This document shows positions 25,920 to 41,827 of a stretch of DNA of 52,196 nucleotides, piece by piece. Made by a program: the position numbers and the translations under genes. The notes beneath the pieces were generated by a model that was not told the origin of the DNA, did no database searches, and worked only from the letters and a program-made list of their open reading frames with translations. Source of the stretch: Chlorogloea sp. CCALA 695 (GTDB taxonomy: Bacteria > Cyanobacteriota > Cyanobacteriia > Cyanobacteriales > Chroococcidiopsidaceae); NCBI RefSeq assembly GCF_003003885.1, contig NZ_PVWN01000027.1, forward strand, positions 1 through 52,196. Reading direction: 5' to 3'. The number at the start of each line of letters is the position of its first letter. Within the stretch, counting starts at the first letter, position 1.

Positions 25920-27764
25920 ATGACTGAAAACTATACTCGTGCAACACCAATGGAACTTGAATCTTATCAAAGATTTGAACCTGTTGAATCCATTGAATCG
26001 CTACAATCCGATGCCACCTATGCTTATATCCAACCTATCGAAGCAAGGGAATTAGCACAACCTGACGCAAATATTACCGTCGCTGCGGCGGTAGTTGAGA
26101 TGTTGGAACAACTGGGGATAGAGTGCGCCTTTGGGGTTGCTGGGGGAGCAATGGCAACGCTTTGGGGTTCTTTGTCAAACAGCCTGATGAAAGTATTAAA
26201 CTTTCGCCATGAAGGAGGCGCAGCCTTTGCAGCCGTTGAAGCGTACTTTGCAACCAATCGTCCGACAATAGTTTTTACTACCGCCGGGCCAGGAATTACA
26301 AATGCAATCACCGGACTATTTGCGGCGCGTGGAGAAGGAGCTAAGGTAATATTTTTATCGGCTTGCACTTCCGCACCTCAACGGGGGAAATGGGCAATTC
26401 AAGAAACTACAGCTTATACCTTGCCTAGTGAAGGAATCTTTACATCGGGAGCGTTGTTTAACTACGCAACTACTGTAGAGTGTGCGGCGCAATTACCGCA
26501 AATTTTTAAGAGGATTGCTTTAGGGTTGGCGCAACCAGGAGGCTTTGTCGCCCATTTGAGCATACCTACGGCTGTGCAAACAAGTTTAGTTGAGCAGGAG
26601 TTGCCAAGATTAGACTTAGAAGGCGATCGCTCTATTCCCAGCAAAGAAACAATTGCTAAATGCGTCAGCAAGCTAACAGAAGGGAACTTTGCAATTTGGG
26701 TAGGTTTTGGAGCTAGGGGAGCCGCCGAGGAAATTCGCACTCTTGCGGAAAGAACCGGAGCCGCCGTGATGTGTTCGCCGCGTGCTAAGGGGATTTTTCC
26801 TGAAGATCATCCGCAATTTATCGGGGTGACAGGCTTAGGTGGGCATTCGTCGGTAATGACTTATATGCAAACCCAAATGCCTTTAAGGATATTGGTACTA
26901 GGGACGCGCTTAGGGGAACCAACTTCATTTTGGAGTCAATCAATGGTTCCTAGAGGTGGATTTATCCATGTAGACATCGATCCCCAAGTTCCAGGGGTAG
27001 CTTATCCTCACGCGGAAACTTTGCCTATACAGTCAGACATTGAGGTATTTGTGCAAGAGTTATTAACGCAAATGCCCCAAGTAGAGCAAACAAATACCTT
27101 ACCGCACCCAGAAATTGAAGCGATTTCACCGGGTACAGATAACTTAGTCCGTCCTGAAGTGCTGATGTCAGCAATCCAAAAAGTCATAGTTGAAGGCACT
27201 GATGCTGTAGTTATGGCAGAGTCGGGCAACTCTTTTACTTGGTCAACTAACCTGTTGAGATTTAATCAAGCAGGGCGTTACCGGGTGAGTACGGGAGTAG
27301 GGGCGATGGGTCATACGGTAACGGGAGTTGTCGGGGCAGCGATCGCGCGCCAGGGTATTGCGGTGGCGATTGTCGGCGATGGGGCAATGCTGATGAATAA
27401 CGAAATTAGCACCGCCGTTAAGTATCAAGTTCCGGCAATTTGGATTGTGCTAAATGACGCTCGATACAATATGTGCTTTCAAGGAATGAAACTACTAGGA
27501 CTTACAGGAGCCGATGCGTTAATTCCGGAAACAGATTTTGTTACCGTAGCGCGGGGTATGGGCGCTGATGGGGTGCGCGTTACAACCGAAAGCGATTTGA
27601 CTGCGGCGTTGGAAAAGGCGATCGCGCACAATAGCCCCTTTGTAATTGATGTCCTGATCGATCCTAGTCGCCCCGCACCTTCTAAAGGACGCAATCAAGG
27701 GCTAGCCGCGCTCGGAGTCAAAGCGACTGGTACACCCAAACAAGTTTCCTTTCCCTTGGTTTAA
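25920..27764 (+). CDS. scyA: ScyA, ThDP-dependent scytonemin acyloin synthase
   Basis: The 614-residue protein is an acetolactate-synthase-like ThDP enzyme with an N-terminal extension of about 50 residues. It has the catalytic-type Glu98 in FRHEGGAAFAAVEAYFA, PYR-domain VFTTAGPGITNAI, and a ThDP/Mg motif GDGAMLMNNEIST (GDG at 486-488). Where most relatives have NN it has ND (LNDARYN, 512-513). In Nostoc punctiforme ScyA was shown to couple indole-3-pyruvate with p-hydroxyphenylpyruvate to give a beta-ketoacid. It is the first gene of the scy operon and is followed by scyB after 22 nt. There is no strong Shine-Dalgarno before the ATG. Confidence 0.95.
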   Translation: MTENYTRATPMELESYQRFEPVESIESLQSDATYAYIQPIEARELAQPDANITVAAAVVEMLEQLGIECAFGVAGGAMATLWGSLSNSLMKVLNFRHEGGAAFAAVEAYFATNRPTIVFTTAGPGITNAITGLFAARGEGAKVIFLSACTSAPQRGKWAIQETTAYTLPSEGIFTSGALFNYATTVECAAQLPQIFKRIALGLAQPGGFVAHLSIPTAVQTSLVEQELPRLDLEGDRSIPSKETIAKCVSKLTEGNFAIWVGFGARGAAEEIRTLAERTGAAVMCSPRAKGIFPEDHPQFIGVTGLGGHSSVMTYMQTQMPLRILVLGTRLGEPTSFWSQSMVPRGGFIHVDIDPQVPGVAYPHAETLPIQSDIEVFVQELLTQMPQVEQTNTLPHPEIEAISPGTDNLVRPEVLMSAIQKVIVEGTDAVVMAESGNSFTWSTNLLRFNQAGRYRVSTGVGAMGHTVTGVVGAAIARQGIAVAIVGDGAMLMNNEISTAVKYQVPAIWIVLNDARYNMCFQGMKLLGLTGADALIPETDFVTVARGMGADGVRVTTESDLTAALEKAIAHNSPFVIDVLIDPSRPAPSKGRNQGLAALGVKATGTPKQVSFPLV

Positions 27765-27786
27765 CTGCTTTTAACAGGATAGTTAC

Positions 27787-28839
27787 GTGAAAATTTTTGA
27801 AACTATCGAAGAAATGGGTCACGAGCAAGTGCTTTTTTGCCACGGACAAAATCCAAACATCAAAGCAATTATTGCAATTCACGATACGGGTTTAGGTCCA
27901 GCCATGGGAGCAACTCGAATGCTTCCTTACGTGAATGAGGCCGCCGCCCTCAAAGACGTTTTGCGTCTCAGTCGTGGGATGACCTACAAAGCTGCTTGCG
28001 CCAATATTCCTGTAGGCGGCGGTAAAGCGGTAATTATTGCCAATCCCGAAGAAAAATCTGACGAGCTATTTGAGGCTTACGGGCGGTTTATTGAAAGCTT
28101 GAACGGGCGGTTTATTACCGGACAAGATGTAAACATTACACCGCAAGATGTCTGCACAATTCGCCGTCAAACAAGCCACGTAGTTGGTACTTCCGAAAAG
28201 TCTGGAGGTCCTGCGCCAATTACGGCTAAAGGTGTACTTTTGGGGATCAAAGCCGCCGTCAATTTTCGCCTGCAAAATCAAGGACTGGATGGTTTAAAAG
28301 TTGCCGTCCAGGGCTTGGGAAATGTGGGAGGTAATTTGTGTAAGTACCTGCACGAGCATGGGGTTGACTTATACGTTACCGATGTTAGCAGCGAAAAAGC
28401 AGAACTTGTTGCTTCGTTGTACGGAGCTAAAGTTGTCGCCCCCGATGAAATTTATGGTTTAGATGTTGATGTGTTTGCCCCTTGTGCTTTGGGGGGAATT
28501 TTAAACAGCGACACTATTCCACTAATTAAAGCGCCTATTGTGGCTGGGGCGGCAAATAACCAGCTAGAAAGCGAGCAACTACACAGCCAAGCATTGAAAT
28601 CAAAGGGGATTTTATATTGCCCGGATTATGTGATTAATGGCGGCGGACTTATAAACGTTTACAACGAAATGATTGGTTATGACGAAACCAAAGCATTTCA
28701 ACAATTAAACAACATTTACGACACACTTTTAGAGATTTTTGCGATCGCCCAAAGTGCAGAAATTACTACCTATGAAGCTTCTCGGCATTTAGCCCAAGAG
28801 CGGATTAATAAAGCTAAAAGTCTAAAAACAAAGGAGTAA
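27787..28839 (+). CDS. scyB: ScyB, leucine-dehydrogenase-like tryptophan dehydrogenase
   Basis: The 350-residue protein matches amino acid dehydrogenases of the Leu/Phe/Val type. Substrate-binding Lys68 and catalytic Lys80 lie in GMTYKAACANIPVGGGK, at the positions seen in leucine dehydrogenase. Asp114 is in ITGQDVNI, and the Rossmann motif GLGNVGG is at 176-182. ScyB deaminates L-tryptophan to indole-3-pyruvate with NAD+, supplying ScyA. The start is GTG with an AGGA site. It ends 3 nt before scyC. Confidence 0.95.
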   Translation: MKIFETIEEMGHEQVLFCHGQNPNIKAIIAIHDTGLGPAMGATRMLPYVNEAAALKDVLRLSRGMTYKAACANIPVGGGKAVIIANPEEKSDELFEAYGRFIESLNGRFITGQDVNITPQDVCTIRRQTSHVVGTSEKSGGPAPITAKGVLLGIKAAVNFRLQNQGLDGLKVAVQGLGNVGGNLCKYLHEHGVDLYVTDVSSEKAELVASLYGAKVVAPDEIYGLDVDVFAPCALGGILNSDTIPLIKAPIVAGAANNQLESEQLHSQALKSKGILYCPDYVINGGGLINVYNEMIGYDETKAFQQLNNIYDTLLEIFAIAQSAEITTYEASRHLAQERINKAKSLKTKE

Positions 28840-28842
28840 TCA

Positions 28843-29805
28843 GTGGAAAAAAATACCTTCGCTACATCGGCTTTTATTGCCACTTCCCCCGAAACCGCCT
28901 TTGACTATCTCTGCGAGTTGCAGAATTTAGACGAGTGGACGTTGTTTAGCCGGATGATCGAACAAATTGATGATGATACTTGGCTAGGTACAGCTTCTGG
29001 GTATCAAAACAATTTGTACTATCACATTAAAAAACTCCAACATCCACTTTTTTACGGCATTGAGTGGCATTGTGGCGTTGAGTACAACCAGTATTTTCAA
29101 ATTTACCCCGTATTGCTTTTTCCTACCGACTATATAGAACCGGGAACAGACGAGAAGGGAGTTTACTTTCACTGGTTGAGCTTTATCGATCCAATTCGTC
29201 GTCCGCCGATGATTATGGAGGGAATTCATACAGTACATAGTTCTGAATGCCGATCTTTGAAAGGTAATTTGGAGCGTAAAGCCGGACTTACCCAAGCAGC
29301 CAAAGGGCGCTACTACATTGATGTAGACACCATGTACATTGATGCACCAGTAGAAATGGGTGCGGAGTATTTGCAAGATGTCCGCAATCTAGATGAGTGG
29401 GCGCACTTATTGCATCCCAGTGGCGAAATTACTCCCGAATCTGGTGAATTTATCGATGAGTACGGGCAAAAAGTACAAGTCAAGTTTCGCCTTAACAATT
29501 TGAGTAAGTATTATTTGCTGGAACAGGAATATTTCTATCCTGACTACAACTATTACCAACGTTCGCCAGCAGTTTTGATTCCTTGCTCTTACGCTTTCAA
29601 CGATCCAGCCGCATCGGGATTTATTCAGCACCGAATTACTTTTTGGAAAGTCGGCGAAACTCTGCCTCATGGCAAGCTACAAATTGAAGACTACGGCGCT
29701 GAGAGTATGAATATCAAACGTACTCTAGAAGCTAAAGCTGGGAATACTGAAACCTTTGCGCGGGGAATGAGCTATATTCCTCGTTCTTTGGTGGGTGCGA
29801 AGTAG
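28843..29805 (+). CDS. scyC: ScyC, scytonemin cyclase/decarboxylase
   Basis: The 320-residue protein is the ScyC family enzyme that cyclises and decarboxylates the ScyA product to the tricyclic ketone precursor of scytonemin. It is built of two similar halves: ELQNLDEW (residues 25-32) recurs as DVRNLDEW (179-186), and both halves end with LExKAG-T followed by a G-x-x-YI pattern. The halves look like polyketide-cyclase or SRPBCC-type folds, which is an inference. Start is GTG with AAGGAG. No signal peptide is present, so it acts in the cytoplasm. Confidence 0.93.
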   Translation: MEKNTFATSAFIATSPETAFDYLCELQNLDEWTLFSRMIEQIDDDTWLGTASGYQNNLYYHIKKLQHPLFYGIEWHCGVEYNQYFQIYPVLLFPTDYIEPGTDEKGVYFHWLSFIDPIRRPPMIMEGIHTVHSSECRSLKGNLERKAGLTQAAKGRYYIDVDTMYIDAPVEMGAEYLQDVRNLDEWAHLLHPSGEITPESGEFIDEYGQKVQVKFRLNNLSKYYLLEQEYFYPDYNYYQRSPAVLIPCSYAFNDPAASGFIQHRITFWKVGETLPHGKLQIEDYGAESMNIKRTLEAKAGNTETFARGMSYIPRSLVGAK

Positions 29806-29809
29806 CGTC

Positions 29810-31036
29810 ATGAAACTGAGATTGCTCATTTTAGCTATTCTTGCGGTATTAGCTCCGCAAGCCGCCGAAGCTGCAACTTTTTCAATAGTTGCAGATGGTT
29901 TAGATAATGCTAGAGGACTGAGTTTTGCTCCTGATGGCACTATTTATGTTACCGAAGCCGGCTCGGGGGGTACGGGGGCTTGCGTTCCTTCACCGACGGG
30001 TGGCAACTTGTGTTATGGAACTAGCGGCGCTGTAACAAAAATTGGCAATGGTACAAAGGAGCGGGTTTTAACCAACTTACCATCGATCGCCGCGAGCGAT
30101 GGTACTAGCTCCTTTGGCGCTCAAGATATCAAGTTTGATACTGCGAGTAATCCTTACGTGCTAATGGGCTACGCCGCCGATCCAGCCTTGAGAGATACAG
30201 CTTTAAATAGTCCTGACTTGGGCAAGCTACTTTTAGCAGACTTTGCTACTAATTCGTGGAGCGTCGTTGCTGATTTCTCTAACTACGAATTAGCTAATAA
30301 TCCCGACGGGGCAGATATAGGTAGCAATCCGACGGCTTTTATTCTTGATGGGAATCGCGCGATCGCTATTGATGCGGGAGCAAATGCCCTATTGAGTGTA
30401 GGAATCGACGGCAGCAACTTACAAGCAATTGCTAGTTTTCCTCAAGAAGTTTTAACTAATCCCATCTTTCCCCCAACCGACTCTGTACCTTTCGATCCTA
30501 CTCAAGTGCCATCGGGAGAAATACCACCAGGATTTGCCATAAATGCGACACCTACAGGAGTAGCTGTAGGTGCAGACGGTGCTTACTATGTCAGTCAATT
30601 TACGGGTTTTCCTTTTCCCGAAGGTGAAGCCAAAATTTACCGAATTGGTACTGATGGGGAAACCAGCATTTACGCTGATGGGTTTACGCAACTGACAGAC
30701 TTGGAATTTGATGCCCAAGGCAATTTGTACGCCTTGCAGTATGCCAACGAGTCAGCCTGGAAAGGGAATTTTGATGGCTCTGTAATTCAAATTGCCCCCG
30801 ACGGAACGCAAACAACGCTCCTGAGTGGAGACGGGCTAATTGCCCCCTCTAGCTTGGCAGTTAGCCCCGATGGTCAAGTTTACGTTACCAATCAAAGCGA
30901 TCGCCCAGGCGCAAGTCAAGTTCTGAGAATTGACAATAGTGAACCCGTTCCCGAACCTACTTCTGTTCTTGGCGTACTAGCTTTTGGGGCTTTAGGACTC
31001 AAACAGTGGCGCAAAAAGCGATTCCTTAATCGCTAA
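29810..31036 (+). CDS. scyD: ScyD, exported ScyD/ScyE family protein with PEP-CTERM
   Basis: The 408-residue protein starts at ATG 29810, 4 nt after scyC (a GTG at 29795 would be inside scyC). It has a signal peptide (LRLLILAILAVLAPQAAEA), a beta-propeller-like domain with repeated G-x-D/A-G-A-Y/I-Y-V-S/T blades (FAPDGTIYVTEAG, GADGAYYVSQFTG, SPDGQVYVTNQSD), and a C-terminal PVPEPTSVLGVLAFGALGL sorting signal with basic tail. It is one of the periplasmic proteins of the scytonemin cluster; its exact step is not known. It is a paralogue of ScyE. Confidence 0.9.
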   Translation: MKLRLLILAILAVLAPQAAEAATFSIVADGLDNARGLSFAPDGTIYVTEAGSGGTGACVPSPTGGNLCYGTSGAVTKIGNGTKERVLTNLPSIAASDGTSSFGAQDIKFDTASNPYVLMGYAADPALRDTALNSPDLGKLLLADFATNSWSVVADFSNYELANNPDGADIGSNPTAFILDGNRAIAIDAGANALLSVGIDGSNLQAIASFPQEVLTNPIFPPTDSVPFDPTQVPSGEIPPGFAINATPTGVAVGADGAYYVSQFTGFPFPEGEAKIYRIGTDGETSIYADGFTQLTDLEFDAQGNLYALQYANESAWKGNFDGSVIQIAPDGTQTTLLSGDGLIAPSSLAVSPDGQVYVTNQSDRPGASQVLRIDNSEPVPEPTSVLGVLAFGALGLKQWRKKRFLNR

Positions 31037-31118
31037 CGGTGAATATAGCTTTGTAAAGAGCTTAATCCCACAAGTCCCATTTCCCAATTAACCAAATTTC
31101 CCAAAATACTACCAGTAA

Positions 31119-32510
31119 ATGTCGAAAAATATGAACTTCAAGTTATCTGCTTTTACCTTTATTTCTTTTTGTTTTGCAGCGATCGTCAGTGTACCTGCCG
31201 CTCAAGCTGTTTCTCTAACTACAATTGTTGAGGGAATTAGTAACGCACGGGGTGTTAGCTTTGGTCCTGATGGGACAATGTACGTTGCAGAGCCAGGTGT
31301 TGGCGGCGATGGTGCTTGCCAACCTTCTCCAAGTACGCTATTTCAGCCGATTTGTGCGGGTAATTCTGGCTCTATTGTTAGAGTCAAAACTGACGGTCAG
31401 ACTGATCGCATATTTACTGGTTTTCAATCTTTAGCCGAACAACCTTCGGGTAACCAGGCTGCTGGTCCTGCCGACTTGCAGTTTGATTCAGTAGGTAATG
31501 CTTACTTGCTAACTGGCTATGCTGGCTACCCAGGAAATCGTGACGCGGAAACCCTTGAATTGGGTAGCAATTATGCACTTCCACCCCAGCAACTTGCTGT
31601 GTTTCCACCATCCGCACCGGAGGATGTTTTAAATACTTCTAACTTGGCGAAACTGTTTAAAGCAGATTTGAACACCGGAGGATTAACAGAGATTTTTGAC
31701 TTTGCCAAGTATGAAATTGCCAATAATCCAGATGGTGGAGACCAAGTTACAAACCCCTACGACTTAACTATTAGTGGCGATACGGCTTATGTCGTTGACG
31801 GCGGCGGAAATGCAACATATAGCATCAAGCTTGATGGTAGTGAAGCAAAAGCAACAGCACTCCCACTAAACATTATTACTAACCCACAACTTCCAGAGCT
31901 TCCACCAGGAGCAGAATTGCCACCAGGATTGATTAACTTTTTAGAGCCAGACGAAAACGGCGATCCTCGGATATCAATTCAATCAGTACCTACGGGTGGT
32001 GCAGTTGGTCCTGATGGTGCTTTGTATGTTGGGGAATATTCAGGTTTTCCTTATCCACAAGATGAGGCGCGGATCTTCCGCATTGGCGAAGACGGTGTAC
32101 CAACAGTTTTTGCTGAAGGGTTCAACGCAATTACTGAACTAACTTTTGACAAAGAAGGCAACTTGCTAGTTCTACAATTTACCGACACTTCACAGATAAC
32201 AAGTCAAGATATCAGTAGTTTACCAGGATCTCTAATTCGACTAGCCGCCGATGGTACGCGCACCACTCTTGTTGGCGCAGGTGAAGGGCTAGAATCGGCC
32301 GATGGTCTGACTATTGGTCCTGATAACCAAATCTATGTAACAAATCGAGGCGTAGGCCCAGGCAACGGCAGTGTTGTCAGAGTAAATACAGGCGCGGAAC
32401 CCGTACCCGAACCTGCTTCTGTCTTAGGAATATTAGCTTTGAGCGCTGCGGGTGTTGGCTCTAAGTTTAAGGGCAAGTTAAAGCAGTTGACACACAAATT
32501 CAAAGCTTAA
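31119..32510 (+). CDS. scyE: ScyE, exported ScyD/ScyE family protein with PEP-CTERM
   Basis: The 463-residue protein has a signal peptide (LSAFTFISFCFAAIVSVPAA), the same blade pattern as ScyD (GPDGTMYVAEPG, GPDGALYVGEYSG, GPDNQIYVTNRG) and a PVPEPASVLGILALSAAG sorting signal before a Lys-rich tail. It is homologous to ScyD over the whole length, with an insertion near residues 140-180. Genetic work in Nostoc showed ScyE is needed for scytonemin, and ScyD and ScyE are thought to act on the monomer in the periplasm. A second ATG at 31131 is possible. It is separated from scyF by 87 nt with two GCGATCGC sites. Confidence 0.9.
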   Translation: MSKNMNFKLSAFTFISFCFAAIVSVPAAQAVSLTTIVEGISNARGVSFGPDGTMYVAEPGVGGDGACQPSPSTLFQPICAGNSGSIVRVKTDGQTDRIFTGFQSLAEQPSGNQAAGPADLQFDSVGNAYLLTGYAGYPGNRDAETLELGSNYALPPQQLAVFPPSAPEDVLNTSNLAKLFKADLNTGGLTEIFDFAKYEIANNPDGGDQVTNPYDLTISGDTAYVVDGGGNATYSIKLDGSEAKATALPLNIITNPQLPELPPGAELPPGLINFLEPDENGDPRISIQSVPTGGAVGPDGALYVGEYSGFPYPQDEARIFRIGEDGVPTVFAEGFNAITELTFDKEGNLLVLQFTDTSQITSQDISSLPGSLIRLAADGTRTTLVGAGEGLESADGLTIGPDNQIYVTNRGVGPGNGSVVRVNTGAEPVPEPASVLGILALSAAGVGSKFKGKLKQLTHKFKA

Positions 32511-32597
32511 GTAACAAAGTGCGATCGCACCTTACTGGCATTAGGGCGATCGCTTTGCTTGGTTGCACAAATTATACACGAATAGGAGTCGAACATC

Positions 32598-33752
32598 ATG
32601 GGATTAGTAAAAAATCTCTCATTAGTCGTTGCAACAAGTGGCTTGATGCTAGCGGTAACAACCGAAGCCCAAGCAGTTAGTCTCAGCTACGATAGTTCCA
32701 TCGGCAGACCAGCTAACTTCGCCGCAGGAGAAACTCCGTTTACTCCAGGTACGATTGCCATTCCCCAAGGCATTGCGGTACAGAAAGAAACAGGGAACGT
32801 CTTCGTGGCTAATGACGTAACCGATCAAATCCAGGTGTTCAGTTCTGAGGGTAATTTTCTTCAAGCCTTTGGCGGTAAGGGTAGCGGGCCTGGGCAATTT
32901 GACGGGCAATCAGCGCTCGCATTTGAACCGAATACGGGAAATTTATATGCGGGTGATGTTGTCAACAACCGGATTAACGTATTCGATCCCCAAGGTAACT
33001 ATCTCAACTCCATTGCTCAAGGTCAATTTAGCGGACTAGTTGAAGGCAGACCTTTCTTCGGTCCATCGGGGATTGTATTTGACAATAACGGCAATGGATT
33101 CGTGGGTGACTATAGTAGCGATCGCATCTTGAAATTTAATTCAGATGGCGAAATAACTGGTTCTATTGGCAGCAACGGCACTGCGCCAGGACAATTTCAA
33201 GGTCCATCAGGCATAGCAACTACGCCAGAGGGAAATTTAGTTGTGACTGACCAGTTCAACAACCGCATTCAAGTGATCGACCAAGAAGGCAATGCGCTGC
33301 TAAATTTTGGCACACAAGGCACTGGAGAGGGAGAGTTCAATCAGCCTATTGATGCTGAGGTGGACGAGAAAGGTAATATCTACGTGACGGATTCTATCAA
33401 TAGCCGCGTCCAAATATTCGATAAAAGTGGTAACTTTCTGAGTACCTATGGCGAACCTGCCCTTGATGCAGAAGGCAATGTCGTACCACCTTTAGCGTTG
33501 GGCGCACCCTCTCCCTATGGCGATCCCCTAGACCTCGAACCAGGTAAGTTTAATTGGACGGCGGGTTCAGACCTAAAAGATGGCAAGCTTTATGTCGGTG
33601 ACTTCTTCCAAGGTCGCGTCCAAGTAATGAATGTCAACAACTCAGAACCAGTCCCTGAGCCTTCCTCAATGTTAGGTTTAGCGGTTTTGGGTGGTGGTGC
33701 GTTAACTCTCAAATTAAAGCAACGCCAAAAGCAAAAAGCATTTAAAGCATAA
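32598..33752 (+). CDS. scyF: ScyF, NHL-repeat PEP-CTERM protein
   Basis: The 384-residue exported protein has a signal peptide (LVVATSGLMLAVTTEAQA) and five to six NHL beta-propeller blades, for instance VFVANDVTDQIQVFSSEGNF, LVVTDQFNNRIQVIDQEGN and IYVTDSINSRVQIFDKSGNF. It ends with PVPEPSSMLGLAVLGGGAL and a basic KQRQKQKAF tail. ScyF is the fourth exported-type scy gene and is assumed to act in the periplasm or at the surface. AGGAG precedes the ATG. Confidence 0.93.
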   Translation: MGLVKNLSLVVATSGLMLAVTTEAQAVSLSYDSSIGRPANFAAGETPFTPGTIAIPQGIAVQKETGNVFVANDVTDQIQVFSSEGNFLQAFGGKGSGPGQFDGQSALAFEPNTGNLYAGDVVNNRINVFDPQGNYLNSIAQGQFSGLVEGRPFFGPSGIVFDNNGNGFVGDYSSDRILKFNSDGEITGSIGSNGTAPGQFQGPSGIATTPEGNLVVTDQFNNRIQVIDQEGNALLNFGTQGTGEGEFNQPIDAEVDEKGNIYVTDSINSRVQIFDKSGNFLSTYGEPALDAEGNVVPPLALGAPSPYGDPLDLEPGKFNWTAGSDLKDGKLYVGDFFQGRVQVMNVNNSEPVPEPSSMLGLAVLGGGALTLKLKQRQKQKAFKA

Positions 33753-33874: not shown

Positions 33875-33917
33875 GCATACACAAATTTTGAAATTAAACC
33901 TCATAGGAGTCAAACAA

Positions 33918-34337
33918 ATGGCTGATACTCAAACCACTAGCAGCACTACTCAAGACTTAAATGAATTACTAAAACAATCACCCTTTGGGCCGTTGTTGGA
34001 TATTAAAGGTGCTGACGGGAATAACCTAACAGTAGAGGATATTTTCGGTAAGGTTGATTTCGCAAGCGGAGGCATTCCTTTAGGTAGTAGTGGCGATCCT
34101 TTCGCTGATGACAACTTCTGGGATATTTTTGCTGGCGGTGTGAACCCTACAGAATTTTCTAGTAGCAGTATACCCGCTTTTACTGGTAATATTCCTCAAG
34201 GATTGCCAACTGGTGGTTCGAGTACCCCAGTGCCAGAGCCTTCTTCTGTATTAGGTCTAGCTGTAATAGGTTTAGGCATTGCAGCAGCTAAATTTAAGCA
34301 ACACGGGCGACGGACAGCAAAAGTTTTTAACAAATAA
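33918..34337 (+). CDS. PEP-CTERM protein without signal peptide, between scyF and eboA (1)
   Basis: The start at 33918 has a strong TAGGAG site; a TTG at 33888 is less likely. The 139-residue product begins MADTQTTSSTTQDLNELLKQ, which is polar and lacks any signal peptide. Its middle is rich in Asp, Gly, Phe and Pro (DPFADDNFWDIFAGG), and it ends with a perfect sorting signal: VPEPSSVLGLAVIGLGIAAA and the basic KFKQHGRRTAK tail. PEP-CTERM proteins normally need a Sec signal to reach the exosortase; its absence here is odd. I do not recognise this as a described scytonemin gene. It shares the NPF/DPF-A-type motif with the next gene. Confidence 0.7.
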   Translation: MADTQTTSSTTQDLNELLKQSPFGPLLDIKGADGNNLTVEDIFGKVDFASGGIPLGSSGDPFADDNFWDIFAGGVNPTEFSSSSIPAFTGNIPQGLPTGGSSTPVPEPSSVLGLAVIGLGIAAAKFKQHGRRTAKVFNK

Positions 34338-34454
34338 ACGCGATCGCACTCAGGATTAAAAGGCAAATAGTAACTTTTCCAAATATTTATACTTTGTCCT
34401 TCTAATCCTGGCTTTATAAAAATCTCCATATTACAAATAAGCGAACTATTACTT

Positions 34455-35504
34455 ATGGCAACTAATGAACCCAGTATTAGCAACTTTTTTGTTGGTAATG
34501 GTAGCAATAACTCTTATACTAACGGCGGCGGTAGTAGCAATCCGTTCGATGGCGGCGGTAGTCCTCTAACTACTGGTGATATTTCTAATTTCTTTGCTGA
34601 TGGTAAAAACCCTTTTGCCAATAGTGATATTTCTAATCTCTTTGCTGATGGTAAAAACCCTTTTGCTAATGGTGAAAACCCCTTCGCAGAAAATCAAAAC
34701 TTTGGTAGTAGCAACGCCACCATCGGTACAGGCAATTGGGACTTGAGTAGTAACAACGCTACTATCGGTAATGGTAATTGGAATATAGACTCAGCAAGTT
34801 ACAACGCTACTATTGGTAATGGCAACTGGCTTCGAGAGGAGGCAAGTTACAACTCAACCGTTGGTAACGGTAATTGGTACTGGGACTCTAGCAGCAATAA
34901 TTCTACCCTTGGTAATGGTAATTGGAGCTTTGGTAGCGATAATTCCACCCTTGGTAATGGTAATTGGGATTTTGGCAACAATAATGTAGTCATCGGTAAC
35001 GGAAATTGGCTATTTACCGACAATAACGTAATTATTGGTAATGGCAATTGGTTTATAAGCAACGATCCTACAGCGAGCAAGCCAAGTCAAAATATTGCTA
35101 CTTTAGAAGCAATATTTCCAGAGTTGAAGCCAGACATTGATAACTTAGTTAGTTCGCTCGTCGGTGGCTTTGGCAAAGAATTTACTGGATTAACTAGCGG
35201 TTTTGATGCCGCAAGTAGCCAAACTTTTGAGCAACTCATCCTTTCTCAAGGTAATGGTGCGGATCTAAGCACTTTGTCTGATAGCGATTTGACACAATTT
35301 TTTGCTTCTTTAAGCGGAATGTCCGGTACGGACGGCACAACGGGTAACTCTGGCTGCTTTTTTGGGTGTAATGGTGTTGGCAATATACCCAGCGAACCCG
35401 TCCCAGAACCCGGTTCGGCGCTGTCGCTATTAGCGGTGGGATTAATTTATTTTGTGTGGTCAAAGAAATTTAAGGCAAAAGGCAAGCTTAGTTTGAAAAA
35501 CTAG
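34455..35504 (+). CDS. PEP-CTERM protein without signal peptide and with NxTIGNGNW repeats (2)
   Basis: The 349-residue protein starts MATNEPSISNFFVGNGSNNS, polar and without a signal peptide. A short direct duplication (DISNFFADGKNPFAN then DISNLFADGKNPFAN, residues 42-71) leads into eight repeats of the type N-x-T/V-I/L-G-N/T-G-N-W at about residues 87-199. The spacing is mostly 13-17 residues, which should stack as a beta-solenoid. A helical region (about 215-290), a CFFGC motif (301-305) and the sorting signal PVPEPGSALSLLAVGL with a Lys tail follow. It is in the same direction between scyF and eboA. I know no family for it. Confidence 0.7.
   Translation: MATNEPSISNFFVGNGSNNSYTNGGGSSNPFDGGGSPLTTGDISNFFADGKNPFANSDISNLFADGKNPFANGENPFAENQNFGSSNATIGTGNWDLSSNNATIGNGNWNIDSASYNATIGNGNWLREEASYNSTVGNGNWYWDSSSNNSTLGNGNWSFGSDNSTLGNGNWDFGNNNVVIGNGNWLFTDNNVIIGNGNWFISNDPTASKPSQNIATLEAIFPELKPDIDNLVSSLVGGFGKEFTGLTSGFDAASSQTFEQLILSQGNGADLSTLSDSDLTQFFASLSGMSGTDGTTGNSGCFFGCNGVGNIPSEPVPEPGSALSLLAVGLIYFVWSKKFKAKGKLSLKN
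34710..35060 (+). repeat. Eight-fold protein-coding repeat with GGTAATGGTAATTGG core
   Basis: The units contain the core GGTAATGGTAATTGG or close variants coding for GNGNW, separated by variable serine, asparagine and aspartate codons. The codon-level differences between units (GGC/GGT, AAC/AAT) show an old, selected repeat rather than a fresh expansion. Confidence 0.7.
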
Positions 35505-35588: not shown

Positions 35589-36287
35589 ATGAAAACTGCG
35601 ACTTCTTGCACGTCCGATTTACTCCGTCAGTGGGTGGCACAACATACCACTACTGAGGGTTTGGCTTGGTTAGATAACAAATGTAAGCTTATTGCTGATG
35701 GTGCAGAAGTGCGAGTATTTTTTACGTCTTTTAGCGCTGTACCTCGCTATGTAGGCAAAGAAAAGTTATCGCTAACAATGGAACAATTGCAAGCCGCCCA
35801 ATTAATGCGATCGCATTGGCAGCCTCAATTTTGGAACAGCGACGCAACTGCTCGTACTTTATTATTATTGGCGCTTCCTCACAACAGGGCTGAAGAATAT
35901 TTACAAAAATTAGAGCAACTTTTTAATACCGCCGACATGGGGGAATTGGTCGCTCTTTATCAAGCTTTGCCACTGTTACCATACCCCGAACAGTATCGCT
36001 TGAGGGCGGCAGAAGGATTAAGGAGTAATATGATTCCCGTCTTTAATGCGATCGCGTTGTACAATCCCTATCCGCAAGAGTATTTCGACGAATTGGCGTG
36101 GAATCAAATGGTACTCAAGGCGCTATTTGTAGGTAGTCCTCTGCGGCTAATTCAAGGCTTAGAACTTCGCGCTAATCTAACTTTAGCCCAAATGTTAACC
36201 GACTACGCCAACGAACGATTGGCAGCTAATCGCACTGTTTCGCCGGAACTTTGGCAATTAGTAGAACATATTAATTCAAAAAAATAG
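35589..36287 (+). CDS. eboA: EboA
   Basis: The 232-residue protein begins MKTATSCTSDLLRQWVAQHT; a GTG at 35559 would add ten residues. It is a soluble, helical protein with LLLALPHNRAEEYLQKLEQL, ALPLLPYPEQYRLRAAEGLR and NAIALYNPYPQEYFDELAWN, which fits the EboA family. The ebo genes are needed in cyanobacteria to move the scytonemin monomer to the periplasm; in Pseudomonas the same set (edb) acts on other metabolites. EboA's chemistry is unknown. It is followed by the dispersed repeat and eboB. Confidence 0.85.
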   Translation: MKTATSCTSDLLRQWVAQHTTTEGLAWLDNKCKLIADGAEVRVFFTSFSAVPRYVGKEKLSLTMEQLQAAQLMRSHWQPQFWNSDATARTLLLLALPHNRAEEYLQKLEQLFNTADMGELVALYQALPLLPYPEQYRLRAAEGLRSNMIPVFNAIALYNPYPQEYFDELAWNQMVLKALFVGSPLRLIQGLELRANLTLAQMLTDYANERLAANRTVSPELWQLVEHINSKK

Positions 36288-36384
36288 CGTTGCTGAAAGT
36301 GTGATAATTTTTCCTTTTTGCAATCCTGTCTCCTTGGGAATTGTTCATTAAAATCACCAATTACCCATTACCAATTACCAATTC
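36287..36384 (-). repeat. Dispersed repeat, copy 2, inverted with respect to 9914-10006
   Basis: GCGTTGCTGAAAGTGTGATA is followed by a T-rich run, CAATCCTGTCTCC and ATTACCC/ATTACCA heptamers (36360-36380). In reverse complement this aligns along most of its length with 9914-10006. It fills the eboA-eboB gap and gives the fake N-terminus ITNYPLPITN if translation is started too early. Confidence 0.8.
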
Positions 36385-36388
36385 AACT

Positions 36389-37294
36389 ATGTTTATAGAT
36401 CCTCATATTCACATGACCGCGCGGACAACTTACGATTATCTGATTATGCGCGAATCAGGCATTGTTGCTGTAATTGAGCCTGCTTTTTGGCTAGGACAAC
36501 CCCGAACTAATGCTGGATCGTTTCAAGACTATTTTAGTAGCTTAGTCGGCTGGGAGCGCTTTCGCTCGGCTCAATTTGGAATCGCCCATTACTGCACGAT
36601 TGGCTTAAATCCTAAAGAAGCAAATAACGAAGCTTTGGCGGCGGAAGTTATGGAATTATTACCTCTATTTGCTTGCAAAGAAGGAGTAGTTGCGATCGGC
36701 GAAATTGGTTATGATGACATGACCCAAGCTGAAGATAAATGTTTTCGAGCGCAGCTAGAACTTGCCAAAGAGTTAGATATGGTGGTGCTAATTCATACTC
36801 CCCATCGCAACAAAAAAGCTGGAACAAGCCGGAGTATGGATGTGGCAATCGAACATGGGATAGATCCGACTAAAGTAATTATTGACCACAATAATGAGGA
36901 AACTGTCAAGGAAGTTTTAGATCGGGGTTTTTGGGCAGCTTTTACAATTTACCCTCATACAAAGATGGGTAATGCGCGGATGGTGGAGGTTGTGCGTCAG
37001 TATGGGTGCGATCGCATTATTGTTGATAGCAGCGCCGATTGGGGTATCAGCGACCCCTTAGCAGTGCCAAAAACAGCGCAACTAATGTTAGATCGGGGCA
37101 TTTCTGCTGATCATGTCAATACTGTTTGCTATCAAAATGCTTTAACAGCTTATAGTCAAAGCGGACAAATGAAAGAGTCTGACTGGTTAAATCCTCAACC
37201 TATCGATCAACGGCAATCATTTAATGATAATTCTGTCTTGCGTGGACAAGAGCCAATAGTAGAAGGGGCGAGTAATTACGCCCTAATTGAGTAG
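36389..37294 (+). CDS. eboB: EboB, TatD-like metal-dependent hydrolase
   Basis: The true start is ATG 36389, MFIDPHIHMTARTTYDY; the open frame goes back through the dispersed repeat but that part is not coding. The 301-residue protein is an amidohydrolase of the TatD kind with the HxH metal motif at residues 6-8, GEIGYDDMT, LIHTPHRNK, IDHNNEETV and VDSSADWGISDP. EboB is part of the ebo export set. Its substrate is unknown. It is followed by eboC after 8 nt. Confidence 0.9.
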   Translation: MFIDPHIHMTARTTYDYLIMRESGIVAVIEPAFWLGQPRTNAGSFQDYFSSLVGWERFRSAQFGIAHYCTIGLNPKEANNEALAAEVMELLPLFACKEGVVAIGEIGYDDMTQAEDKCFRAQLELAKELDMVVLIHTPHRNKKAGTSRSMDVAIEHGIDPTKVIIDHNNEETVKEVLDRGFWAAFTIYPHTKMGNARMVEVVRQYGCDRIIVDSSADWGISDPLAVPKTAQLMLDRGISADHVNTVCYQNALTAYSQSGQMKESDWLNPQPIDQRQSFNDNSVLRGQEPIVEGASNYALIE

Positions 37295-37302
37295 AGGTAT
37301 AC

Positions 37303-38205
37303 ATGACTACTGTATTAAAGTCTAATTACAGCTTATCTACTCGTTTTTGGGCATATTTGCAACTAATGCGCCCTGCAAATATTGTTACGGCTTGGGCAGA
37401 TATCCTAACAGGTTTTGCCGCTTCCGGCGCAGAATTAGGAGTTCCTTTAGCTTGGCTACTCTTAGCTACAACGGGGCTTTATGGCGGCGGGGTAGTGTTT
37501 AATGATGTTTTTGATGCCGAGTTAGATGCCATAGAGCGTCCCGAAAGACCAATCCCAACAGGTAAAGCATCGATTTTTGGCGCAACTAGCTTAGGAATTG
37601 TACTTTTAACGATAGGCGTAGTAGCGGCGGCTCAAGTTTCGTTACTAAGTGCTGTGATTGCGGTATTTGTGGCAATAGGGGCATTAATTTACGATGCCTG
37701 GAACAAACACAATGCCTTATTAAGTCCTATAAATATGGGTCTTTGTCGTGGTGGCAATTTACTTTTGGGCGTGAGTGCAATACCTGCAATGGTTACAGAG
37801 CGCTGGTTTTTAGCACTCATTCCCATTTTTTATATAGCCGCAGTTACAGCCATTAGTCGCGGGGAAGTACACGGCGGTAAAAGTAGTACAGGAAAACTAG
37901 CTTTATTGTTACTTGCGATCGCCCTAGGTGGAGTATTAGCTTTAGGATTATTGCCAAATTACTCTATTTTCGCAGCTTTACCATTTTTAGCTTTATTAAC
38001 GGCGCAAGTATTTCCACCTTTTATTGCTGCAACTAAAGAGCCTAATGCCGATATTATCCGTAAAGCTGTAAAAGCTGGGGTTTTATCGCTAATTATTTTA
38101 GACGCGAGTATGGCGGCGGGTTTTGCTGGCGGGTTATACGGCTTACTTGTTTTAGGGTTGTTATTTGTGTCTATAACTCTAGCAAAAGTCTTTGTAGTAA
38201 CTTAA
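37303..38205 (+). CDS. eboC: EboC, UbiA-family prenyltransferase-like protein
   Basis: The 300-residue membrane protein has about eight hydrophobic helices and the UbiA motif NDVFDAELDAIERPERPIPT (Asn67, Asp68, Asp71, Asp75), and a second motif region YDAWNKHN. UbiA enzymes attach prenyl chains to aromatic acceptors in the membrane; EboC was shown to be essential for export of the scytonemin monomer in Nostoc, perhaps by prenylating a carrier. It ends 3 nt before the dsbA gene. Confidence 0.92.
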   Translation: MTTVLKSNYSLSTRFWAYLQLMRPANIVTAWADILTGFAASGAELGVPLAWLLLATTGLYGGGVVFNDVFDAELDAIERPERPIPTGKASIFGATSLGIVLLTIGVVAAAQVSLLSAVIAVFVAIGALIYDAWNKHNALLSPINMGLCRGGNLLLGVSAIPAMVTERWFLALIPIFYIAAVTAISRGEVHGGKSSTGKLALLLLAIALGGVLALGLLPNYSIFAALPFLALLTAQVFPPFIAATKEPNADIIRKAVKAGVLSLIILDASMAAGFAGGLYGLLVLGLLFVSITLAKVFVVT

Positions 38206-38208
38206 ATT

Positions 38209-38832
38209 ATGTTAATTGACATTTTTCACGATACCGCTTGTCCTTGGTGTCGAATTGGTAAAAAACATCTCTTTGATGCGATCGCATTATTAGACCAAAA
38301 CCAGACAATAGAGATACGCTGGCATCCTTTTTTACTAGACGATTCAATTCCCGCTCAAGGGGTAGGGTTTCGCGCTTTTATGAAGATGCGAAAAGGGATA
38401 GGAGCAGATCAATTAACACAGCTATTTAGTTACGCCACTCAATCCGGTGCAAAAGCTGGAGTCAAGCTAGATTTTGAAAAGGTTTTTTTGGCTGTAAATA
38501 CAACGCTTTCTCATCGGCTAATTGCACTGACACCAAAAACCCATAAAAACGTCATTGTCGAAGCCGTATATAAAGCTTACTTTGAAGATGGACTAAATAT
38601 TGGCGATGTTGACACCCTAGCTTCTTTAGGTAAAGAATTTGGCTTTGACCAAAAGCAGTTAAAGCAGCAATTAAGTAGCGATGCGGCGTTAGCTGAAGTT
38701 GTAGAAGAAGCAAAAGCGGCAAGAAATCAAGGTATAAGTAGCGTACCGTTTTTTGTCATCAACAACAAAGTTAGCATCAGTGGTTCGCAGTCGGTAGAAG
38801 TATTTATCCAAGCAATACAAAAAGAACTTTAG
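38209..38832 (+). CDS. DsbA-family (FrnE-like) thiol oxidoreductase
   Basis: The 207-residue protein has the CPWC active site (Cys11, Cys14), a WHPFLLDDSIP segment, and the cis-Pro loop ISSVPFFVINNK. It has no signal peptide, so it should be cytoplasmic, as FrnE-like proteins (2-hydroxychromene-2-carboxylate isomerase/DSBA family) are. A dsbA gene next to an aroB gene occurs in the main scytonemin cluster of Nostoc punctiforme; here the pair lies between eboC and eboE. It may be a redox or isomerase step of the pathway. The next gene starts 16 nt later. Confidence 0.85.
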   Translation: MLIDIFHDTACPWCRIGKKHLFDAIALLDQNQTIEIRWHPFLLDDSIPAQGVGFRAFMKMRKGIGADQLTQLFSYATQSGAKAGVKLDFEKVFLAVNTTLSHRLIALTPKTHKNVIVEAVYKAYFEDGLNIGDVDTLASLGKEFGFDQKQLKQQLSSDAALAEVVEEAKAARNQGISSVPFFVINNKVSISGSQSVEVFIQAIQKEL

Positions 38833-38848
38833 GAATTATTTAATAACT

Positions 38849-40042
38849 ATGACAACTAATACTAAATCAAAAATTAGTTACAGTATACAACCAATTGAGC
38901 AATGCGTTCCAGTTAGTTTTCGCTATGACGTGCGATTTACTACAGGAATATTTAACGTAGGCAATCCCTTACTAGCGCAAACAATCGTTGCTGAAGGAGA
39001 AGGGACAAAAAGAGCGATCGCAATTGTCGATTCTGGTTTAATAGAACATTATCCGCATCTACTCGCCCAAATAACCGACTACATCGACTTTTACGGACAG
39101 GTGTTAACTTTAGCGGCAGATCCGATTGTAGTACCTGGGGGAGAAGCGGCTAAAAACGATCCACAATTATTAACTCAAATTCACGAAGTTATTAATAATG
39201 TCGGGTTGTGTCGTCATTCTTACGTTTTAGTAATTGGCGGTGGAGCGGTGTTAGATATGGTAGGCTACGCCGCCGCTACAGCACATCGGGGTGTAAGGTT
39301 AATTCGCATTCCGACTACTGCATTGGCGCAAAATGATTCGGCGGTGGGGGTAAAAAATGGGATTAATGCTTTTGGCAAGAAAAACTTTTTAGGTAGTTTT
39401 GCCACACCTTACGCTGTTTTAAATGATTTTGACTTTTTAACTACTTTAAGCGATCGCGACTGGCGAGCGGGCATTGCAGAAGCAATTAAGGTAGCTTTAA
39501 TCAAAGACTTGGACTTTTTTGAGTTTATCGTGTCTAATGCTAAAAAATTAGCGCGGCGAGACATGGAAGTTATGCAGCAGTTAATTTATCGTTGCGCTCA
39601 GTTGCATTTAGAACATATTGCTACTAGCGGCGATGCTTTTGAGTTGGGTTCTTCTCGTCCTTTAGATTTCGGTCATTGGGCGGCGCATAAGTTAGAGCAA
39701 TTGACTGATTTTCGCTTGCGACATGGGGAAGCGGTAGCAATTGGTATTGCGCTTGATAGCACTTATTCTTACTTGTCTGGGTTCCTATCTCGACCCCAAT
39801 GGCAACTCATTATTGATACACTTTTAGCTATTGGTTTTACTTTATCTGTACCAGAACTTGCTGAACAACTAAATTCTCCTCCTTCTTCTCGGTGTCTGCT
39901 GGCGGGGTTGACAGAGTTTAGAGAACACTTAGGGGGCGAATTGACTTTAATGTTATTGCAAGAAATTGGTCAAGGTTTTGAGGTGCATGAGGTTGATGTA
40001 CCTGTCTATAGGAAAGCTATTAAGGAACTGTTGGCAGTTTAA
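38849..40042 (+). CDS. eboD: EboD / AroB-like 3-dehydroquinate synthase
   Basis: The 397-residue protein is a 3-dehydroquinate synthase homologue: GGGAVLDMVGYAAATAHRG, IPTTALAQNDSAVGVKNGIN, KNFLGSFATPYAV. The three zinc ligands appear kept: Glu in GIAEAIKVALI, His in LDFGHWAAHK and His in RLRHGEAVAIG. It therefore could make dehydroquinate for aromatic supply, or act on a related sugar phosphate. In ebo operons this gene is eboD; in the Nostoc main cluster the equivalent is named aroB. Its start has AGGA. Confidence 0.85.
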   Translation: MTTNTKSKISYSIQPIEQCVPVSFRYDVRFTTGIFNVGNPLLAQTIVAEGEGTKRAIAIVDSGLIEHYPHLLAQITDYIDFYGQVLTLAADPIVVPGGEAAKNDPQLLTQIHEVINNVGLCRHSYVLVIGGGAVLDMVGYAAATAHRGVRLIRIPTTALAQNDSAVGVKNGINAFGKKNFLGSFATPYAVLNDFDFLTTLSDRDWRAGIAEAIKVALIKDLDFFEFIVSNAKKLARRDMEVMQQLIYRCAQLHLEHIATSGDAFELGSSRPLDFGHWAAHKLEQLTDFRLRHGEAVAIGIALDSTYSYLSGFLSRPQWQLIIDTLLAIGFTLSVPELAEQLNSPPSSRCLLAGLTEFREHLGGELTLMLLQEIGQGFEVHEVDVPVYRKAIKELLAV

Positions 40043-40490
40043 AACGCCCTCCTAAATTCTTAGGAAAAACCGAATATGGGGGGTCTGCCCCCCAAACCCC
40101 CTGCAAAAGTGCCTTGTCTTGGGGTACGGTAGGTTTCGGCAATCGGCTTCTTTTTCGGTTAATACACAAGTTTTTGGTAAGAATCGAATAGGTGTGTCTT
40201 TGTTCTACAAGGCTTGTCTTAAGAAAAACTGAGTATGGAGGGTCTGCCCCCAAACCCCCGTTGGGGAGCCAGTATGGGGATTACTTTGTCTTCCCCATAG
40301 CTGGCGTGGACGAGTTGCCTCCCAAGACATTTTTCGGGGGAGTCTCTCCTCAGATTCGATGCCGCCCAAACCCCCCGCAAACAATGTCATATCTGTGAGC
40401 GTTCAATCTCTGTGCGTTTAGCAGTGTTTCGGTGAGGGTTAAAGAAAGTTCAGCCCTCTAACTGACTTCACCAAAATACAAACAATAATT
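40043..40490. other. Intergenic region with GC-rich direct repeats
   Basis: No gene; small frames here are produced by the repeats. Two similar blocks occur: 40060-40103 and 40217-40263, each reading roughly CTTAGGAAAAACCGAATATG then GGGTCTGCCCC and AAACCCCC. The first contains GGGGGG-TCTG-CCCCCC (40078-40093), which could terminate the eboD transcript. A third piece (40302-40385) with GAGTTGCCTCCCAAGACATT resembles the window's right end in reverse. Confidence 0.6.
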
Positions 40491-41729
40491 ATGAAAATTG
40501 GTACAGATAATATTCATCTCACCTACTGCACTAATATTCATCCCGGCGAAAGCTGGAGCGACGTTTTTGCCAATTTACAACAATATATCCCTGTTCTTAA
40601 GTTGCGGTTGTCTCCAGAAAACCCTTTTGGTATTGGACTGCGTTTAGCAAATATTGCCGCTAAGGAGTTATTAGAAAAAGATAATTTAGCTCAGTTTCAA
40701 TCTTGGTTAACGGCTCAAAACTTGTATGTATTTACTCTAAATGGCTTTCCTTATGGGGAATTTCATCACCAAGTTGTCAAAGATGCCGTTTATTCGCCCG
40801 ATTGGTCTAAACTTGAACGCCTAAACTACACAATAAATTTAGCCAAAATTCTCGCTGCTTTATTGCCTCAAGGTATAGATGGAGGGATTTCTACTTTACC
40901 TATATCTTACAAGCCTTGGTGGAAAGGCGAAGTATCTGCTGAAAATCACATTTTCGACTCTAGTTGTCTTCACCTTGCATCCCTTACCGCCGAACTTATC
41001 AACCTTCGCCAGCAAACCGGGAAGTTCATCCATTTAGATATAGAACCCGAACCCGATGGATTGCTCGAAAATACGGCGGAAGTAATCGATTTTTTTACTA
41101 ATTGGTTACTCCCAGTTAGCGGCGCAATTCTTGCTGAATCTTTGAGTATCTCTCCCAAGTTAGCAGAAGCACAATTACTCGAACACATCCGTATTTGCTA
41201 CGATACTTGTCATTTTGCGGTGGAATACGAAGATCCGGCTACAGTTTTTGCACTTTTTCAGGAGTGTGGCATCAAAATCGGCAAAATACAGCTAAGTGCA
41301 GCTATTAAAGTAGCATTACCTGCCAATAGAGAGGTTTTATTATCACGATTGCGCCCCTTTGCTGAGTCTACTTACTTGCACCAAGTAATCGAACGTTACC
41401 CAGACGGTTCATTGCATCATTACCCCGATTTAGTTACAGCTTTACCATATCTAGAGCAGTCAAAAGCTCAAGAATGGCGCACACATTTTCACGTACCTAT
41501 TTTTATCCACGATTATCAAGTTTTGCAGTCTACCCAAGATGACATTGTGGCAGTTTTGCAATTACTACAAGCAAATCCTGTTTGTCAGCATTTAGAAATT
41601 GAAACCTATACTTGGGATGTTTTACCCCAAGAAATGAAAATCGATTTACTCGCATCTATCCAAAGAGAGTATGAGTGGGTACTACAAACAGGCTTGGCAA
41701 TTCAACCACAGCTTGCTTCCATCTCCTAA
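40491..41729 (+). CDS. eboE: EboE, sugar-phosphate isomerase/epimerase-like (xylose isomerase fold)
   Basis: The 412-residue protein is a TIM-barrel member of the xylose isomerase-like family: HLTYCTNIHPGESWSDVF, VFTLNGFPYGEFHH, GKFIHLDIEPEPDG, HIRICYDTCHFAVEYED and KIGKIQLSAAIKVALP. Conserved Glu, Asp and His residues for a metal site are visible (DIEPEPD, YDTCH). NCBI naming calls it metabolite traffic protein EboE. It is needed with the other ebo genes; its substrate is unknown. Confidence 0.9.
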   Translation: MKIGTDNIHLTYCTNIHPGESWSDVFANLQQYIPVLKLRLSPENPFGIGLRLANIAAKELLEKDNLAQFQSWLTAQNLYVFTLNGFPYGEFHHQVVKDAVYSPDWSKLERLNYTINLAKILAALLPQGIDGGISTLPISYKPWWKGEVSAENHIFDSSCLHLASLTAELINLRQQTGKFIHLDIEPEPDGLLENTAEVIDFFTNWLLPVSGAILAESLSISPKLAEAQLLEHIRICYDTCHFAVEYEDPATVFALFQECGIKIGKIQLSAAIKVALPANREVLLSRLRPFAESTYLHQVIERYPDGSLHHYPDLVTALPYLEQSKAQEWRTHFHVPIFIHDYQVLQSTQDDIVAVLQLLQANPVCQHLEIETYTWDVLPQEMKIDLLASIQREYEWVLQTGLAIQPQLASIS

Positions 41730-41760
41730 TAATTTTTCAAGCAGTATTGTTCCATATTTT

Positions 41761-41790
41761 CCCCCCTTTTGAAGGGGGGTTAGGGGGGAT
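41761..41790 (+). repeat. GC-rich hairpin between eboE and eboF
   Basis: CCCCCC pairs with GGGGGG across TTTTGAA (41761-41779), followed by TTAGGGGGGATC. Elements of this shape are frequent in cyanobacterial genomes. It lies between two genes of the operon and may slow or partly terminate transcription. Confidence 0.65.
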
Positions 41791-41827
41791 CTCCCCACAT
41801 CTTTTTAAATTAACCCCTATAAAAACC

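Follow-up and report, generated by a model that had tools for sequence, protein, structure and literature searches.

Among the described systems close to the locus reported here is the scytonemin operon with its ebo cluster (PMC2726228, PMC6529634, PMC6282210). Among its products, ScyE and ScyF have been placed in the periplasm (PMC6282210), and a 2025 study reported that the exosortase CrtB is required for scytonemin in N. punctiforme, its loss abolishing the pigment (PMC12188702). The scytonemin PEP-CTERM proteins named in that study are ScyD, ScyE and ScyF only, of 35 in the genome, and the route of scytonemin across the outer membrane is called undefined there. For PEP-CTERM proteins in general, a re-analysis of start sites suggested that 97% have a signal peptide (Haft 2006, PMC1569441). 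A different kind of precedent is the water-stress protein WspA of Nostoc, which is reported to be secreted to the sheath while lacking a typical signal peptide (PMC8445988). WspA is described as a beta-galactosidase, the account of it in that paper mentions no scy linkage, and earlier work cited there reportedly found that it binds scytonemin in vitro.

Here we describe two adjacent genes, gene 1 and gene 2, that lie between scyF and eboA in Chlorogloea sp. CCALA 695 (contig NZ_PVWN01000027.1; the window is the whole 52,196-nucleotide stretch analysed). The pair shares the neighbourhood of the described operon, but it is not among the conserved scytonemin genes in Table 1 of PMC2726228, nor is it part of the operon description in PMC6529634. 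For NpR1259, the last gene of PMC2726228, two membrane segments are predicted, and the strains of that comparison contain no homologue. The initial annotation knew of no such pair in described scytonemin clusters, and in the literature that we searched, which held few subscription papers and no supplementary files, we likewise found no description of it. We regard the pair as a deviant variant among PEP-CTERM proteins and, within scytonemin loci, as a conserved component for which we found no description; it is not a new class of system.

Two PEP-CTERM genes with polar N-termini

Both open reading frames are present on the + strand, and their coordinates were confirmed (Table 1). Gene 1 begins 165 nt after scyF, gene 2 follows it by 117 nt, and a further 84 nt lead to the eboA start used here (35589). 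By NCBIfam the neighbours are named ScyD/ScyE-family, ScyF, EboA and EboC; scyA-C are names that we presume from position and from homology in relatives, and the ebo genes other than eboA and eboC are likewise presumed from position.

Table 1. Features of the gene pair and of its neighbourhood (positions in the window)
Feature	Position	Strand	Description
Gene 1	33918..34337	+	139 aa; polar start, module A (QSPFG... NPFA..FW.IFAGGVNP), low-complexity body, PEP-CTERM
Gene 2	34455..35504	+	349 aa; disordered start, beta-roll, helical domain, PEP-CTERM
AGGAG ribosome-binding site of gene 1	33905..33909	+	8 nt 5' of ATG; within leader common to relatives
PEP-CTERM match, gene 1	34230..34298	+	TIGR02595
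PEP-CTERM match, gene 2	35400..35471	+	TIGR02595
Beta-roll region, gene 2	34692..35054	+	about residues 80-200; eight G[N/T]GNW repeats, spacing 14 or 16 residues
Helical region (predicted), gene 2	35094..35315	+	residues 214-287
scyA-scyF, upstream operon	25920..33752	+	ScyD/E/F by NCBIfam; scyA-C, see text
ebo genes, downstream	35589..43198	+	eboA and eboC by NCBIfam; others, see text
DsbA-like gene among ebo genes	38209-38832		

The initial annotation had described both C-termini as perfect PEP-CTERM signals. Both do carry VPEP, a hydrophobic segment and a basic tail, and both score above the TIGR02595 cut-off of 16 (gene 1, 20.1 bits; gene 2, 16.1 bits), but "perfect" is too strong a word, since their scores against Pfam PF07589 (18.4 and 19.3) fall under its cut-off of 20.7. 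That neither protein has a Sec signal was borne out, with N-terminal hydropathy, judged by cut-offs of our own, as a stand-in for signal peptide prediction: the top 12-residue value near the N-terminus is 0.57 in gene 1 and 0.37 in gene 2, versus 2.3-3.0 in ScyD, ScyE and ScyF. Upstream extension in frame, from a TTG at 33888 for gene 1 and over 27 open codons for gene 2, yields nothing signal-like. The AGGAG before gene 1, together with an AGGAGG-type leader at a fixed distance in relatives, of which gene 2 of the window has only a degenerate form, indicates that the start codons of both genes are probably correct. A missed signal peptide or a frameshift was rejected on the basis of the upstream frames, the N-termini of relatives and the conserved leaders.

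Across the whole genome, 22 proteins match TIGR02595 above its cut-off (three of them only with neighbours in frame). Twenty have a 10-residue hydropathy maximum of at least 1.9 near the N-terminus, and the pair are the only two of the 22 without a hydrophobic N-terminal segment. Given this share and the published 97% after re-analysis of start sites (Haft 2006, PMC1569441), chance or an annotation artefact is unlikely to lie behind the signal-less pair. The genome holds two exosortase genes (PF09721, 154.9 and 74.2 bits). One of the 20 proteins, of 907 aa, with a hydrophobic N-terminus and a VPEP end, is encoded beside the second exosortase gene (L217:2895-5615, contig C57), and another PEP-CTERM gene with a hydrophobic N-terminus lies at 3408-4196 of the window.

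The pair thus resembles the PEP-CTERM substrates of cyanoexosortase B (ScyD, ScyE and ScyF) in its C-terminal VPEP, helix and basic tail, in its place in the same gene row and in the presence of an exosortase in the genome. Unlike them, it has no Sec signal and its bodies are repetitive and of low complexity, and its relatives often have a decayed tail or none.

Co-occurrence with scytonemin genes

Family members were counted at E<=1e-10 in two overlapping samples of related genomes, a relatives sample (n=149) and a class sample (n=388). In the relatives sample, with a profile (A1) built from hits in that same sample, scyC was found in 15 of the 149 genomes, the family in 14 and both in 13; the family is thus present in 13/15 scyC-bearing and in 1/134 scyC-less genomes, and the one exception (G001) is 65% complete and has ebo genes. 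The class sample has scyC in 8 of 388 genomes and the family in five, all of them within the eight (0/380 scyC-less genomes). A second profile (A3), made from the window and 61 of the 77 gene-2 relatives available, with long sequences trimmed to roughly the final 440 residues, returned the same five genomes of the class sample at 1e-10. The window's own genome is in both samples, and without it the figures are 12/14 and 4/7. Fisher values of 8.7e-16 and 7.8e-10 overstate the evidence, because the samples overlap and the genomes are related. Weaker matches in four scyC-negative genomes (G019, G106, G122 and G311; 1e-8 to 1e-6) are short repeat matches, which we read as look-alikes.

We consider it very likely that the pair is linked to scytonemin. 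It is not special to this cluster; it is a widespread companion of scytonemin genes. One genome (G407) has scyA-C, scyE, scyF and ebo genes and lacks the pair, and two others (G108 and G345) have scyC, on short scy contigs, and gave no family match. In a further genome (G485:C3:4405325-4405609), a frame of 113 aa some 22 kb away from scyC matches the C-terminal part of gene 2 over a short stretch and is perhaps a remnant of the pair. Exosortase matches were found in all 18 scyC-bearing genomes searched. Seventeen have a shorter exosortase type scoring at least 142 bits, and G146 is the only one with just the type encoded in a frame of about 511 aa (75.9 bits). The family members of G146 are without PEP-CTERM.

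Genomic positions of relatives

In three Aliterella relatives (G002, G003 and G004) both genes lie between scyF and eboA, as in the window. The contig of G001 begins at gene 1, followed by gene 2 and eboA, and G005 has the final 26 residues of gene 2 at a contig edge, beside eboA. Other genomes have a single fused gene, either after scyF (G096 and G029) or between scyF and eboA and without PEP-CTERM (G105). Two family genes lie 5' of scyA in G146 and five in tandem in G079, and three genomes (G006, G012 and G016) carry one long member about 1.6 kb 3' of the last trp gene.

A scan of named genomes gave 119 matches, of which the best 80, at 79 loci, were analysed further; they come mostly from heterocystous genera (Nostoc, Calothrix, Scytonema, Rivularia, Brasilonema and others). 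Context and pairing were counted at 77 of the 79 loci, leaving out two (L184 and L187) with fewer than five repeats by our own pattern. Among these best 80 of 119 matches, 38/77 loci lie beside scy or ebo genes or beside two or more same-strand trp genes, the latter being our criterion for a putative scytonemin-type trp neighbour. Hits are therefore not scattered without a link to scy or ebo genes, which the initial annotation had named as grounds for abandoning its idea; 29/77 loci have an adequate flank and no scy, ebo or trp neighbour. By class, 14/77 lie beside orthologues of window genes 16765-19910, 15/77 have no recognised neighbour and 10/77 have too short an upstream flank. A low-complexity partner stands within 2.5 kb upstream on the same strand at 66/77 of these best-match loci, 57 times with the module A motif; 8/77 have no tandem partner and 3/77 are too short.

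At four trp-linked loci printed in full (L125, L150, L174 and L161), the pair lies 3' of the trp genes on the same strand, and in three of them the gene between trp and the pair looks by eye like what we take to be aroG. The order given for scytonemin operons in PMC6529634 is trpECABD-aroG.

Window genes 16765-19910 encode a quinone-oxidoreductase-like protein and a pentapeptide-type membrane protein, and at the 14 loci with their orthologues (for example L139) the pair follows immediately. At L094 it lies between these orthologues and ilvN (21012-21530 in the window). These positions hint that the scy operon once stood at this site and later moved. A second, unlinked subfamily is encoded at six further loci (L074, L075, L077, L080, L096 and L097). 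Its members, of about 305-430 aa, carry the repeats of the family and lack PEP-CTERM, and at five of these loci kinase or regulator genes lie nearby; the host genomes are also scyC-bearing. In the scy rows of G010 and G146 (L104:7463-10696 and L109:4034-7219) we also noted proteins of 1062-1078 aa in which a ScyE-like propeller is fused with a GDSL lipase domain and which have no Sec signal at their start. In G146 no scyD, scyE or scyF lies beside this gene, and other ScyE-like frames of about 400 aa are found elsewhere in the genome.

A predicted beta-roll with one tryptophan per coil

Gene 2 contains eight GNGNW or GTGNW repeats, and among 517 GNGNW repeats across relatives a spacing of 14 residues occurs 279 times and one of 16 residues 133 times. 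AlphaFold2 models this region as a confident beta-roll (10-residue means 84-96 over residues 81-200), followed by helices between 214 and 287 (means 87-97 over 221-260 and 72-82 after) and by a C-terminal helix of low confidence (322-348); the N-terminus is disordered. The model of gene 1 is mostly disordered and of low confidence (mean 54). With the gene 2 model, Foldseek returned no match at E<=0.001; the best weak matches are acyltransferases (NeuO, LpxA), then the adhesin heads of AtaA and BoaA and LpIBP, with CbpF also among the best. A sequence search for solved homologues gave none at E<=1.

Gene 2 shares with left-handed beta-rolls (YadA-type adhesin heads, LpIBP/PF21300) a repeat unit about 14 residues long that follows the pattern N-x-T-I-G, and the weak fold matches. 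It differs from them in its GNGNW repeat, which places a Trp in each coil, and in the helical region and membrane tail that follow. PF21300, the grass antifreeze beta-roll, matches 5/62 members of our alignment (best 4.3e-9), which, with LpIBP among the fold matches and the loci without scy, ebo or trp neighbours, would fit a general cold, desiccation or ice-binding surface protein whose scytonemin link is incidental. We hold this to be improbable: the window protein itself has no PF21300 match, the family is nearly absent from scyC-negative genomes, and about half of the best-match loci lie in scy-ebo rows or by putative scytonemin-type trp genes.

Termini across relatives, topology and export

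Termini were compared among the best 80 of 119 matches, for which the gene-2 set numbers 78 without truncated frames and 80 with them. A hydrophobic N-terminus at the conserved start is found in 0/78 gene-2 and 0/66 gene-1 relatives of these named loci; one gene-1 frame (L127) is hydrophobic from an upstream ATG and not from the conserved one. The initial annotation would have given way to homologues with an upstream in-frame signal peptide; none was found among these relatives, and none of them has a convincing Sec-type N-terminus. The fast divergence of the pair (gene 2 is about 58% identical to its A. atlantica counterpart, versus 88% for ScyF) might suggest decayed relics, once-exported proteins that have lost their signal peptides. 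This already disfavoured explanation is most improbable, as the signal is also missing in relatives of many genera and both reading frames and leaders have been kept.

The C-terminus is less uniform. Among the same best matches, a C-terminal hydrophobic segment is present in 47/78 gene-2 relatives and missing in 31/78, and among gene-1 relatives it is present in 3/66, all of the window's genus, and missing in 63/66. PEP-CTERM is therefore a lineage-specific tail and not the defining feature of the pair, and the family as a whole has no common export element. A separate count of 47 C-terminal helices, made over other sequence windows and from another list (L113 is absent from it), has PEP kept in 29/47 and decayed, to PVPES, PVSEP and the like, in 18/47, again among the best 80 of 119 matches; 16 of the 18 are titled Nostoc. 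For ScyE and ScyF frames the motif is kept in 30/31, a figure from loci other than the 47 and with some genomes counted twice. Some members of the family thus keep the helix after the PEP motif has decayed, an argument against exosortase processing being the core function.

According to the positive-inside rule, the more positive side of a membrane helix tends to stay in the cytoplasm. In 45/45 relatives scored among the best 80 of 119 matches, the tail carries more positive charge than the flank that precedes the helix, an asymmetry that would place the body outside and favours an N-outside topology over a cytoplasmic tail anchor. In addition, a CFxxC cysteine pair directly precedes the PEP motif in 5/5 Aliterella gene-2 proteins and could form a disulphide outside the cytoplasm, and the ectodomains are poor in Lys and Arg (2-3%) and Cys-free over the lengths measured.

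These features bear on the possibility that gene 2 is tail-anchored with its body inside the cell, forming with gene 1 a membrane-tethered, condensate-like platform that gathers ScyABC and the Ebo proteins. Such a cytoplasmic scaffold would account for the lack of an export signal in every relative checked and of any membrane segment in many, for the retention of the helix where PEP has decayed, and for the low-complexity Gly/Phe repeats of gene 1. The tail charge, the Aliterella cysteine pair, the extracellular proteins among the beta-roll fold neighbours and the intact PEP of the remaining helices speak against it, and we think it rather unlikely.

A type I (ABC) or other one-step exporter reading a C-terminal signal, with PEP-CTERM a later addition in some lineages, would suit proteins that are signal-less, repetitive and poor in Lys and Arg, some of them without a membrane helix, and the ScyE-like/GDSL protein of two scy loci likewise has no Sec signal. 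At the locus of G079, five low-complexity genes stand in tandem just upstream of scyA (L078:9642-13369); EMTM or EMAM forms the C-terminus of three of the five and AMMM that of a fourth, possibly a short C-terminal signal. However, C-termini are not common to different lineages, no RTX repeat family is among the Pfam matches of 62 relatives, and no exporter gene was noticed in the ORF lists of the window, which leaves this route with a small probability.

A putative extracytoplasmic role in scytonemin deposition

Our preferred reading, to which we give roughly even chances, is that the pair is an extracytoplasmic structural accessory in scytonemin deposition, exported without a cleaved Sec signal. 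The presence of the pair, its linkage and its lack of Sec-type N-termini are shown above; the fold is a prediction, whereas topology, export route, processing and function are what we infer. Gene 2 would provide a beta-roll in which each coil carries one Trp, followed by a helical domain and, at the C-terminus, a membrane helix; gene 1 would provide a flexible protein rich in Gly, Asn and Phe. In this organism, both bodies may reach the outer side of the cytoplasmic membrane, N-outside with the basic tail inside, either because the C-terminal helix acts as a reverse signal-anchor or by way of a dedicated exporter, and the resident exosortase might then cut the exported proteins. Once outside, the beta-roll and the NPFA/Gly repeats could build, or attach to, the matrix of the sheath where scytonemin is deposited, a role comparable to that reported for WspA. 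That the bodies are located outside we judge probable; binding of pigment or matrix by the pair is a more tentative suggestion.

This reading is supported by the co-occurrence with scyC, the position in scy and ebo rows and the tandem arrangement at most of the best-match loci. It also draws on the beta-roll model, on the weak matches to extracellular beta-rolls (AtaA/BoaA heads, LpIBP, CbpF) and the few PF21300 matches, as well as on the composition of the ectodomains, the tail charge, CFxxC and the presence of exosortases. Against it stand the lack of a family-wide export element and the decay of PEP, the genome that has scytonemin genes without the pair and the two without a relative on short scy contigs, the best-match loci that have no recognised neighbour or stand elsewhere at a fixed place, and a fold search whose top weak matches are acyltransferases.

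A narrower proposal is that the two proteins, Trp-per-coil beta-roll and low-complexity partner, make up a matrix that fixes scytonemin in the sheath, with the PEP-CTERM helix as their sole targeting element, so that they would be exosortase substrates that never use a cleaved Sec signal; in this full form we regard it as unlikely. By analogy, WspA is the nearest functional precedent, as a sheath protein reported to lack a typical signal peptide and to bind scytonemin, but it is a reported beta-galactosidase with no scy linkage mentioned, and likeness and difference alike are drawn from its description in PMC8445988. The pair offers a direct genetic handle on the passage of scytonemin across the outer membrane and on its fixation in the sheath. 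It also provides a test case for Sec-signal-independent export of PEP-CTERM proteins, and it may matter for scytonemin production in other hosts.

Leader and non-coding elements

Scans for promoters and terminators were no richer than shuffles. A near-perfect 16-nt inverted repeat lies between scyF and gene 1 (33841-33874); by eye, the corresponding hairpin was not seen in the folds of three Aliterella relatives compared, and it was therefore dropped. Both genes are preceded, at a fixed distance, by a leader like AAAAATAGGAGGATTAATCCTAATG, which recurs over 132 distinct upstream stretches uncorrected for kinship, and 62 upstream stretches of trp, scy and ebo genes from the same loci have much lower column information. 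The leader is palindrome-like, but inspection by eye found the possible hairpin broken in several relatives. In the window it falls at 33890-33917 and 34427-34454; as a conserved leader around AATAGGAGGATTAATCCTAATG it stands 5' of the family genes (for example at L118, L120 and L124), both gene 1 and gene 2, and also of some distant paralogues.
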